Shown piece by piece: positions 2,780 through 9,442 of a stretch of DNA of 64,000 bases. The position numbers and the translations under genes are program-made. Source of the stretch: a bacterium (GTDB taxonomy: Bacteria; Bdellovibrionota_C; UBA2361; SZUA-149; JAEUWB01). The notes beneath the pieces were generated by a model. The model saw only the letters and a list, made by a program, of their open reading frames with translations, was not told the DNA's origin and did not search any database. The DNA lies in the NCBI GenBank assembly GCA_016786595.1, contig JAEUWB010000053.1:62001-126000 (forward strand), in the 5' to 3' direction. Position 1 is the first letter of the stretch. The number at the start of each line of letters is the position of its first letter.

Positions 2780-5377
2780 CTAAACTGCGCGGATCTCTTC
2801 GATTTTAAATATTTCTAAAATATCGCCAGCTTTAATATCTTGATAGCCCTCAATCCCGATACCGCACTCATAGCCACTTTGAACTTCCCTGACGTCATCC
2901 TTAAAGCGTCTCAAGCTCGACATCTTGCCTTCATATAGAACACGATTGTCGCGTAATAAGCGTACAGAAGCTCCACGCTCGACCGAGCCATCTACAACAT
3001 AAGATCCGGCAACAAGTCCAATCTTTGGAACTTTAAATGTTTGACGCACTTCGACGCGACCTAATGTCTTTTCACGAAGCGTCGGAGCAAGCATTCCTCT
3101 AGCAGCCTTCTCTACTGACTCGACTAATTCATAGATCACTCGATAGAACTGCACTTCAACAGAGAAATTCTCGGCCAATTCACGTGCACGTGAGTCAAAC
3201 CCAATATTAAAACCAAGAATCACAGCGCCAGAGGCATGCGCGAGTTGCACGTCGGTCTCAGTAATTCCACCGACTCCGCCATGCACAACTTTAATACTAA
3301 CTTCCTGATTTCCGGCTTTAAGCACTGATTCCTTGACAGCCTCAAGCGAACCTTGAACGTCAGCTTTAATCACAAGCGCCAATGTCTTAGTCTCACCTTG
3401 CTTAACCATTTCCGAGAATGCTTCCAAACTCAGTGGTTTACCTGCTCGTTCAGCCAGCTCTTGAATACGCAATTTGCGCGAACGCGAAGCAGCAAAGGCA
3501 CGAGCCTGGGATTCTGATTCCATCACATAGAATTCATCTCCGGCAAGCGGAGTTCCAGATGCACCTAAAACCTCAGCAGCCATGCCAGGGCCAATTTCCT
3601 TAATCTGCTCACCGTTATCTGAGACAAGTGCACGAACACGCCCCGTCAATGAGCCCGCGAGGAAGTAATCCCCTTTCTTCAGTGTTCCGTTTTGCACAAG
3701 CACAGTCATCACTGGTCCACGACCACGATCAAGTGCAGATTCAATCACTGTTCCAAAGGCCGAACGATTCGGATTAGCTTTAAGTTCAAGAATATCTGCT
3801 TGCAGATATAGATTTTCAAGTAATTCTTTAATTCCGACTTTAGTTTTCGCAGAAACCTGACAAAAAATTGTCTGTCCGCCCCATTCTTCAGGGATTAATC
3901 CATGCTCGGAAAGCTGGGTTTTAATTCTGTCGAGATTAGCGCCTTCCTTATCGATCTTATTCACCGCAACAAGAATCGGCACTTCAGCTGCCTTAGCATG
4001 ATTAATCGCTTCCACAGTTTGCGGCATGACTCCGTCATCCGCAGCAACAACCAACACCACTACGTCTGTAACCTTAGCTCCGCGACTACGCATTGCAGTA
4101 AATGCCGCGTGACCAGGAGTATCTAGAAAAGTTACTGAACCACCTTTGGCAAGATTCACGGTATACGCGCCAATATGCTGGGTAATTCCGCCAGCTTCAC
4201 GCGCTGCTACGCTCGTTTGACGAATTGCATCAAGTAGCGATGTCTTACCATGGTCTACGTGACCCATCACCGTAACAATCGGGGGACGCAGTTTAAGATC
4301 ATCCGGCGTATCTTCAGCTTTTAGCTGCCCAAGTAGTTCCTCTTCTTCATTACCAGTGTTAACCGTGGCGTAACCAAACTCCGCAGCAAGAATTGTCGCC
4401 GTATCGTAATCAATTAATTGATTGATTGTCGCCATTACTCCAAGATTCATTAAAGTCTTAACTACATCTCCGACTTTAACGCTCATCTGGCGTGCCAATT
4501 CACCAACTGAAATTTCGTGATCGATCTTCAGAGCTTTTTTGACTTGTGTGGTCTTCAGAACATCGTCGGCCAGGCCTTCCTGATGTTCGTCACCTCTTTT
4601 ATCCTTCTTTTTACGCCCTCTCCAACCATCACGCTCAGTTGAACTATAGTCGACTAATTCGTCTTTCTTTAAAATCTGCTTACGGCGCTTTTTTGCCTTC
4701 TCTTCAAAATCATCTGACTCCGTAACAACTTTCTTTCTACCAGGAGCGCTCTTTGTTGCCTTGGCTTCAGTTGCAGTGGTAGCAGTTCTACCTTCTGGGC
4801 GCGTGACAACCAGTTGTCTCGGTAATTCAATTTTGCCGAGAACCTTAGGAGTTCTTACGTCGTGACGCTTGCGCGCATCAATCATACGCTCAGAACGTGC
4901 TTCAGCGGTCTCACCAGGAATTTCTTGAAATTCCTCAACAGCACTTGGAACGACAGAAACTTCTTCAAAAACAGCCTGGTCGATAGGATCAGAAACTTGC
5001 TCAACCTGCGTATCGTCAGCGTTAGCTAGAGCGGTTTGCGCTTCGTCGTGCTGTGTTTGAATATGTTCTAATGCTGCCTGCTGAGCGGCCTCTTCTTGTG
5101 CGATTTCTTCGTCAGATTTCTTACGTCTGCGGACAATATTACCGACACGTCTTTCGACAGCAGTGCCAGCGTCTGTTTTAATTTCACGAACTGATTCATT
5201 ATTCACACCCATGGTGCGGCGAATCACAGAGCGACGAATTTTATCGGCTTCATCTTCATTGATCGTACTTGAGTGCGAAGCTTTTTCACCAATGCCAAGT
5301 TGGATGCAAAGGTCCAACACAGCCTTATTCTCAAGGCCGAGCTCCTTTGCTAGCTCATAAACTCTAATTTTTGCCAT
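2780..5377 (-). CDS. infB: Translation initiation factor IF-2
   Basis: GTPase that recruits fMet-tRNA to the 30S subunit and promotes subunit joining. The 865-residue protein has an IF2_N helical domain at residues 1-55, a long charged linker rich in Glu, Lys and Arg to about 285, and a second IF2_N-like segment at 288-340. The G domain follows: G1 GHVDHGKT at 372-379, then [22 protein letters not shown] and a Ser-Ala-Lys G5 motif. Domains II, III and C2 complete the protein. The Lys/Glu-rich linker is normal for the family. The gene follows ylxR by 10 bp and is probably translationally linked to it. Confidence 0.98.
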
Positions 5378-5387
5378 ACACTTAGCC

Positions 5388-5774
5388 TTATTTCCTATCC
5401 TTTTTGCGGTGCGCCGTAATCCTCAACGCTGCTCCGCGATTAATCTTTTTTTGCTGGTCAGAGCAATCTCGTGCCACAAGCTTTTCGTATTTGGTTGCAC
5501 TTAAGATCTGCTTAAGATCTAACTCTAGCGCACGTTTTACTAAGTTACCCTTGGAGAACTCGTGTTGTACGCGCCCGCTAAAGCGTTTACTTGTCAAGCA
5601 TGAAATTTCAGGGTGACAGTAAACACCACGTCCAGTCTTAATTTTATGCAAATCCACCTCAATTGTTGTTTTGTCAGCGCTCAACACAAAACGTATCAGT
5701 TTATCTTTTTGTGTCGTCTTCCCGCACCCTAAGCAGGTACGTGCTGGTGCTGTTAAATCAACTTCTGAGCTAAT
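5388..5774 (-). CDS. ylxR: YlxR family (DUF448) RNA-binding protein with probable AUU start
   Basis: Small basic protein of the nusA-infB intergenic slot; YlxR proteins are thought to bind RNA or modulate transcription. The essential N-terminal motif TCLGCGKTTQKDKLIRFV lies upstream of the first ATG/GTG/TTG candidate (a TTG at 5687), so translation must begin earlier. Upstream of the motif the frame contains no ATG, GTG, TTG or CTG before an in-frame TAA at 5780-5778. Immediately after that stop come two ATT codons (5777 and 5774). A strong AGGAGG at 5787-5782 lies 7 nt from the second. I therefore place the start at the AUU at 5774, giving about 128 residues. The central GRGVYCHPEISC motif is also family-typical. 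Only the start codon is unusual. Confidence 0.85.
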   Translation of the reverse strand: MSSEVDLTAPARTCLGCGKTTQKDKLIRFVLSADKTTIEVDLHKIKTGRGVYCHPEISCLTSKRFSGRVQHEFSKGNLVKRALELDLKQILSATKYEKLVARDCSDQQKKINRGAALRITAHRKKDRK

Positions 5775-5806
5775 AATTTATCCTCCTCATCCCAAAAAAC
5801 GTCGAA

Positions 5807-7279
5807 TTAAAGGCTTTTCACATCAAATTTCAGAAACGAATCGGTTGCCTGTTGAACCATTTTGATCTGATCCTGATCTAATCCAGTTACTGAAACTAAA
5901 TCATCCTCGCTCATTTCGGTGAGCTTCTGGATGGTATTAATCTCGTTACTTAACAAGGCAGTACGGATTTCAATTGGTAAAGCCAATTGGTCGATATCCG
6001 AAATCTGCAAGTCATCGAGATCTTCACCGGATTCAGCAGCCGCTTGTGCAACGAGCTTTTTAGACTCTTCCCAGATTAGTTTAACGCGATCCGCATCAAG
6101 CCCTTCGATGGCAGAGAGCTCTTCAAAAGGAGCCTGCGCAACTTCACGAATTGAACGGAAGCCCTCTTGGAAAAGTAGCTCTGCTTCGCCAAAACCAATA
6201 CCAGTGATTGACTGTAATGAATCACGTGCACGCTTAGTCTCTTCTTCAGCAACTGACTCACTGCGCACATCAATACGCCAGCCAGTTAGCTTAGAAGCTA
6301 GTTTCACGTTCTGACCACCGCGGCCGATTGCCAAAGAAAGCTGATCATCAACCACAACAACTTCCATTGAATGCTCATCTTCATCGACAACAACGCGCAC
6401 AACGTCTGCTGGTGCCAAGGCCCGTGCGACAAAACTCGGGGCATCTGGCGTCCAGGTAACAATATCGATTCGTTCCCCGCGTAATTCAGAAACAACAGCT
6501 TGCACGCGCGATCCTTTGATTCCCACGCAAGCACCAACTGGGTCCACATTTGGATCGTTTGAATATACGGCAACTTTGGCACGCTCCCCCGGCTCACGAG
6601 CTACGCTTTTCAATTCAACAATGCTTTCAGCAATTTCTGGAACTTCAATTTCAAAAAGCTTCCGCATGAAGTCTGGGTGACTACGGGTAAGAATCACTTG
6701 CGGCCCGCGTGCTTCGGCATCAATATCTAAAATCATGGCACGAATGCGATCACCTTGGCGGTAGCGTTCGCGCTGAATTTGTTCACGTGAAGGTAGAACT
6801 GCATCCGTCTTACCAAGGTTAACAATGGTATTGCCGCGCTCAAAACGCTGCACAATACCATTTACAACCTCGCCCTTACGACCTTTATATTCATCAAAAA
6901 TCACGTCACGTTCTGCGTCACGAAGTTTTTGAATGATTACTTGCTTCGCAGTCTGCGCTGCAATACGACCAAGCTCCTCAGAGTTAAGCTTACGACCAAG
7001 CTCATCGCCTACTTCACAGTCGGGGTCATAATCACGACGCGCATCGGCAAAACTAACTTGCGTTGCATCGTCCTTAACGTCATCTACGACGGTGCGAAAT
7101 TCAAGCACCTCAATCTCACCTGTTTCCTCGTTATAACTTGCTTCAAGATTGCGGTTATGACCGAAGTGCTTTTTCGCCGCGCTGAGCACAGCCGACTCCA
7201 GCGCCTCCACCAAGACCTTCTTGTCAATTCCCTTGTCGCGACTTACCTGGTTAATCACAGGTTCTAAATCAAAACGCAT
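5807..7279 (-). CDS. nusA: Transcription termination/antitermination protein NusA
   Basis: Binds RNA polymerase and nascent RNA to modulate pausing, termination and antitermination. The N-terminal polymerase-binding domain starts MRFDLEPVINQVSRDKGID. An S1 domain follows (KGEVVNGIVQRFERGNTIV), then two KH domains (including VGACVGIKGSRVQAVVSEL and LAIGRGGQNVKLASKL). Two helix-hairpin-helix acidic repeats close the C-terminus. The start at 7279 is chosen because AGGAGAG ends 5 nt upstream; the longer reading frame from 7309 adds ten residues foreign to the family. Length about 490 residues is usual for proteobacterial NusA with C-terminal repeats. It lies between rimP and ylxR. Confidence 0.97.
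   Translation of the reverse strand: MRFDLEPVINQVSRDKGIDKKVLVEALESAVLSAAKKHFGHNRNLEASYNEETGEIEVLEFRTVVDDVKDDATQVSFADARRDYDPDCEVGDELGRKLNSEELGRIAAQTAKQVIIQKLRDAERDVIFDEYKGRKGEVVNGIVQRFERGNTIVNLGKTDAVLPSREQIQRERYRQGDRIRAMILDIDAEARGPQVILTRSHPDFMRKLFEIEVPEIAESIVELKSVAREPGERAKVAVYSNDPNVDPVGACVGIKGSRVQAVVSELRGERIDIVTWTPDAPSFVARALAPADVVRVVVDEDEHSMEVVVVDDQLSLAIGRGGQNVKLASKLTGWRIDVRSESVAEEETKRARDSLQSITGIGFGEAELLFQEGFRSIREVAQAPFEELSAIEGLDADRVKLIWEESKKLVAQAAAESGEDLDDLQISDIDQLALPIEIRTALLSNEINTIQKLTEMSEDDLVSVTGLDQDQIKMVQQATDSFLKFDVKSL

Positions 7280-8194: not shown

Positions 8195-9442
<1,248 letters not shown>

Follow-up and report, generated by a model that had tools for sequence, protein, structure and literature searches.

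A putative AUU start codon for ylxR behind a strong Shine-Dalgarno site between nusA and infB

The ylxR (rnpM) gene in the 64,000-nt stretch of DNA analysed here (the window) probably uses AUU as its start codon, most likely the second of two consecutive ATT triplets that follow an in-frame stop, with a low and probably IF3-sensitive yield; judged from the sequence, the probability of this reading is roughly 0.72. The frame encodes a YlxR-family protein between nusA and infB, offers no canonical start codon that would preserve the N-terminus, and has a perfect Shine-Dalgarno (SD) hexamer at a suitable distance from the ATT, a combination that is unique among the genes sampled from this genome. 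Coordinates are positions in the window, and ylxR, nusA and infB are all located on the minus strand:

5807-7279, minus strand: nusA, the upstream neighbour, start inferred (Pfam NusA_N, KH_5, S1)
5770-5790, minus strand: mini-frame ATG AGG AGG ATA AAT TAT TAG, with a stop that overlaps ATT#2 by one base
5782-5787, minus strand: Shine-Dalgarno AGGAGG, matching the 3'-terminal anti-SD CCTCCT of this genome's 16S rRNA (locus L104)
5778-5780, minus strand: in-frame TAA, read in the sequence, that closes the ylxR frame upstream
5775-5777, minus strand: ATT#1, alternative ylxR start codon, 4 nt after AGGAGG
5772-5774, minus strand: ATT#2, proposed ylxR start codon, an in-frame near-cognate 7 nt after AGGAGG
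5685-5687, minus strand: GTG, the first canonical codon in the ylxR frame, beyond CLGC
5388-5774, minus strand: ylxR (rnpM) as read from ATT#2, 128 residues, stop included (PF04296)
2780-5377, minus strand: infB (IF2), the downstream neighbour (Pfam IF-2, GTP_EFTU, IF2_N)

The ylxR frame and its start region

The stop-to-stop frame (5388-5777, 129 residues) belongs to the YlxR family, with a score of 54.3 bits against the Pfam profile PF04296 (cut-off 26.9, E=1.2e-14); the stricter NCBIfam equivalog for RnpM, NF047356, gives 44.9 bits (E 8.9e-12), below its cut-off of 80. The location of the gene between nusA and infB is consistent with this assignment, the order nusA-ylxR-infB being the usual one. 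The nusA stop lies 32 nt from ATT#2, and the ylxR stop (5388-5390) is separated by 10 nt from the infB ATG (5377) and overlaps a TAAGG sequence. On the far side of nusA, the window encodes a 390-residue protein (8195-9367, minus strand) with a signal-peptide-like start and long collagen-like G-x-x repeats (GATGATGDT...), which are mirrored by a long open frame on the opposite strand.

On the minus strand, the ylxR start region reads ATGAGGAGGA TAA ATT ATT AGC TCA GAA GTT GAT TTA ACA GCA CCA GCA CGT ACC TGC TTA GGG TGC. From position 5790 down, ATG AGGAGG A precedes the TAA, and the triplets are those of the ylxR frame only from the TAA on. Between this TAA and the CLGC motif, the frame contains no ATG, GTG, TTG or CTG and no ATC or ATA, the only near-cognates being the two ATT codons. 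A start at GTG 5685-5687, 29 codons past ATT#2, would lose the RTCLGC motif. Any ylxR start other than these ATT codons would either lose CLGC or cross the TAA. The initial annotation had argued that the start must precede every in-frame ATG, GTG, TTG or CTG, and that only two ATT codons follow the in-frame TAA, with AGGAGG 7 nt from the second; both statements can be read directly in the sequence, and its coordinates were right to a few bases.

The 3' end of the 16S rRNA of the same genome is canonical (GGATCACCTCCTTT) and carries CCUCCU, so that AGGAGG is a full anti-SD match; the duplex formed at ATT#2 has a predicted energy of -11.5 kcal/mol. The ylxR frame lacks a canonical start that would keep its N-terminus and has a near-cognate codon at SD distance. 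We also considered control by RNA structure around the SD site and discarded it, the predicted fold being no better than that of shuffled sequences (z 0.25).

Rarity of the start site in the genome

The genome sample consisted of the window and 215 kb of other stretches (279 kb altogether, 44% GC). The two strands of this sample together contain 43 copies of AGGAGG, and therefore the chance of finding it at one of six suitable spacings is about 4.6e-4. A duplex as strong as that of ylxR was found for 8 of 231 genes when any canonical start within 30 codons was allowed, that is, for the best 3.5%, and an equally strong anti-SD duplex accompanies 0.57% of random ATT codons. Among 254 genes in the 279 kb, a mechanical rather than annotated sample obtained by greedy choice of long frames (a codon-usage filter was dropped as too strict, with 23 of 1109 frames), ylxR alone combines a near-cognate codon and a 6-nt SD site upstream of all canonical starts; the one other near-cognate case is an ATC (L129:14331) with a weak site five codons ahead. 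Gene finders usually accept only ATG, GTG and TTG, and genes with non-canonical starts are therefore truncated or missed.

An erroneous base in the assembly, or a strain-specific variant in a species that otherwise has ATG or another canonical start one substitution away, would offer another account. The source genome was assembled into 60 contigs, and a T>G change at either ATT would create an ATG under the same SD site; only 4 of the 195 single substitutions would yield a canonical start, however, and assemblies seldom contain consensus errors, which makes this an improbable explanation.

Start sites of ylxR in relatives and other phyla

For comparison we used 14 genomes of the same order, none of them from the same genus or family, in which ylxR was located with the YlxR profile and NusA anchors, given that a single-protein search had missed divergent ylxR genes. 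The start was readable in 12 order-level genomes, the source genome included, and 10 of these have an in-frame ATG, GTG or TTG ahead of the RxC motif. At the level of the order, the ATT is thus not conserved. In one other genome, G004 (loci L005, L030 and L112; L030:5524-5577), ylxR also has no ATG, GTG, TTG or CTG before RxC but only ATT codons (TAA TCA GTT GGT ATT TAC ATT GGG GTA GTT AGG AAG TGT). This case is weaker evidence because it has no SD site (-1.3 and -3.6 kcal/mol) and a single extra base, for which many positions are possible, would create a TTG start. The NusA tree places G004 with another family (support 99/97), and the source genome does not join it; given these separate branches, the non-canonical starts of the two genomes, if real, probably arose independently. 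No ylxR was found between nusA and infB of a further order member, G005 (L027/L111; L027:2000-2155).

The absence of the gene from this position in G005, together with the ylxR of G004 that has neither a canonical start nor an SD site, might be taken to mean that the gene is decaying in the source genome as well, its start having been lost and a truncated product, or none at all, being made from GTG 5687. We regard such decay as no more probable than an erroneous base because the frame is open over its full length of 128 residues with both the CLGC and GRG motifs retained, a perfect SD site persists at the right distance, and GTG 5687 has no SD site. Still less probable is initiation at ATG 5788-5790 with a subsequent +1 shift into the ylxR frame, or a surplus base after this ATG: it opens a six-codon frame that runs up to the TAG at ATT#2, there are 11 positions at which the loss of one base would bring it into the ylxR frame, and the internal AGGAGG resembles the frameshift arrangement of prfB with an SD-like element inside the frame, but the ATG has no SD site at the usual spacing, a slip of tRNA-Tyr from TAT to ATT would pair badly, no similar site is present in the relatives, and AGG is used less than any other Arg codon (166 of 3187), so that AGGAGG reads better as an SD site than as two codons. 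Each of the three alternatives seems clearly less likely than use of the AUU.

Beyond the order, approximately 23 class-level genomes have canonical ylxR starts throughout, with no non-canonical ones. Nor were non-canonical ylxR starts found in the other phyla searched, and one phylum yielded no ylxR match at all. The comparison has little power for GC-rich genomes, whose frames stay open over long distances. While sampling these phyla, we came across a different peculiarity of ylxR in an unrelated family, f37 (L168-L188, L192-L194, also L159-L165): a run of exactly nine A residues (A9) immediately follows CxxC and the remaining domain continues in the -1 frame. The A9 run with the shift is present in 19 of the 21 readable f37 genomes; the exceptions are G060 (L153/L174), with A10 and an intact frame, and one genome with A10 and another shift. 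In the rows displayed in full, the zero frame ends within 8-18 codons. The pattern suggests that transcriptional slippage or -1 frameshifting is conserved in this family, and a comparable picture is known from dnaX of Thermus. A literature search under DUF448 returned nothing relevant, and YlxR is not mentioned in the main text of PMC3711429. On a speculative note, ylxR, placed as it is between two highly expressed genes, might repeatedly be subject to deliberately inefficient decoding that holds its level down, through a weak start codon in the lineage of the source genome (perhaps independently in G004) and a slippery A9 in f37, with IF3 activity or slippage setting how much of this RNase P modulator is made; we consider this generalization doubtful.

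Possible consequences of the AUU start and comparison with known systems

If the AUU is used in vivo, the AGGAGG 7 nt upstream would bind and position the 30S subunit despite the poor codon-anticodon match, initiation at 5772-5774 would be inefficient, and little YlxR, an RNase P modulator or nucleoid-like protein, would be made in comparison with NusA and IF2, which are encoded on the same mRNA. Translation of ylxR might also influence infB, because the ylxR stop overlaps the TAAGG ahead of infB. A study of Bacillus subtilis reports that YlxR/RnpM modulates RNase P and influences about 400 genes (PMC11898665), which makes a low set level of YlxR plausible. Should the AUU reading be true, the fidelity of initiation could plausibly be linked to RNA processing via an RNase P regulator encoded in the NusA/IF2 operon.

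The initial annotation had further suggested, with reference to infC, that the AUU could tie the level of YlxR, and perhaps coupling to infB, to initiation-factor activity; such a circuit is only partly supported. In the source genome, infC begins with ATG (ATG CGC GGT CGC), as it does in the other order members examined, so that the ylxR AUU belongs to no IF3 autoregulatory pair here. The same scan did pick up non-canonical infC starts in other phyla, namely ATC and ATT directly behind GGAGG (L068/L073, G053/G057), which served as a positive control. Of the original interpretation, then, the AUU as the sole near-cognate type and the SD spacing of the second ATT are supported, whereas ATT conservation in relatives and a link to IF3 autoregulation are not. 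IF3 discriminates against AUU starts, and such discrimination would still be expected for ylxR. It has been shown experimentally for the GTC start of sigR in Streptomyces (PMC5472188), and this precedent, along with that from Staphylococcus aureus (PMC13009471), makes IF3 sensitivity of the ylxR AUU plausible.

Our literature search found no start-codon work on ylxR, and in the accessible part of the B. subtilis study, where the infB operon likewise encodes a member of the same family after nusA, an unusual start is not described (PMC11898665). Proven non-canonical starts in other genes share the make-up seen in ylxR, a strong SD site combined with a weak codon. Among known systems, infC of Escherichia coli likewise has an AUU behind a Shine-Dalgarno site in an operon of translation factors, but it is a different gene and is subject to IF3 autoregulation, a loop that is absent from the source genome. 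The Streptomyces sigR case is similar in that a non-canonical start in a gene other than infC limits the level of the product relative to its partner, and differs in that the codon is GTC rather than ATT and repression by IF3 is experimentally established (PMC5472188). In S. aureus, a strong SD site precedes the weak start codons of cvfC1 (AUU), ccpN (AUA) and infC (AUA), with extended SD sites in cvfC1 and ccpN, and reporters in poor medium indicate that the non-canonical starts give about 10% of the AUG yield (PMC13009471). Of these genes, cvfC1 resembles ylxR in encoding a small protein with a possible zinc-finger fold from an AUU behind a strong SD site, although it is the first gene of another operon and its AUU is conserved across the genus and has been demonstrated by Ribo-Ret and reporters (PMC13009471). 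By itself, the AUU start of ylxR would represent one more case of the mechanism already shown for infC, sigR, cvfC1 and ccpN.
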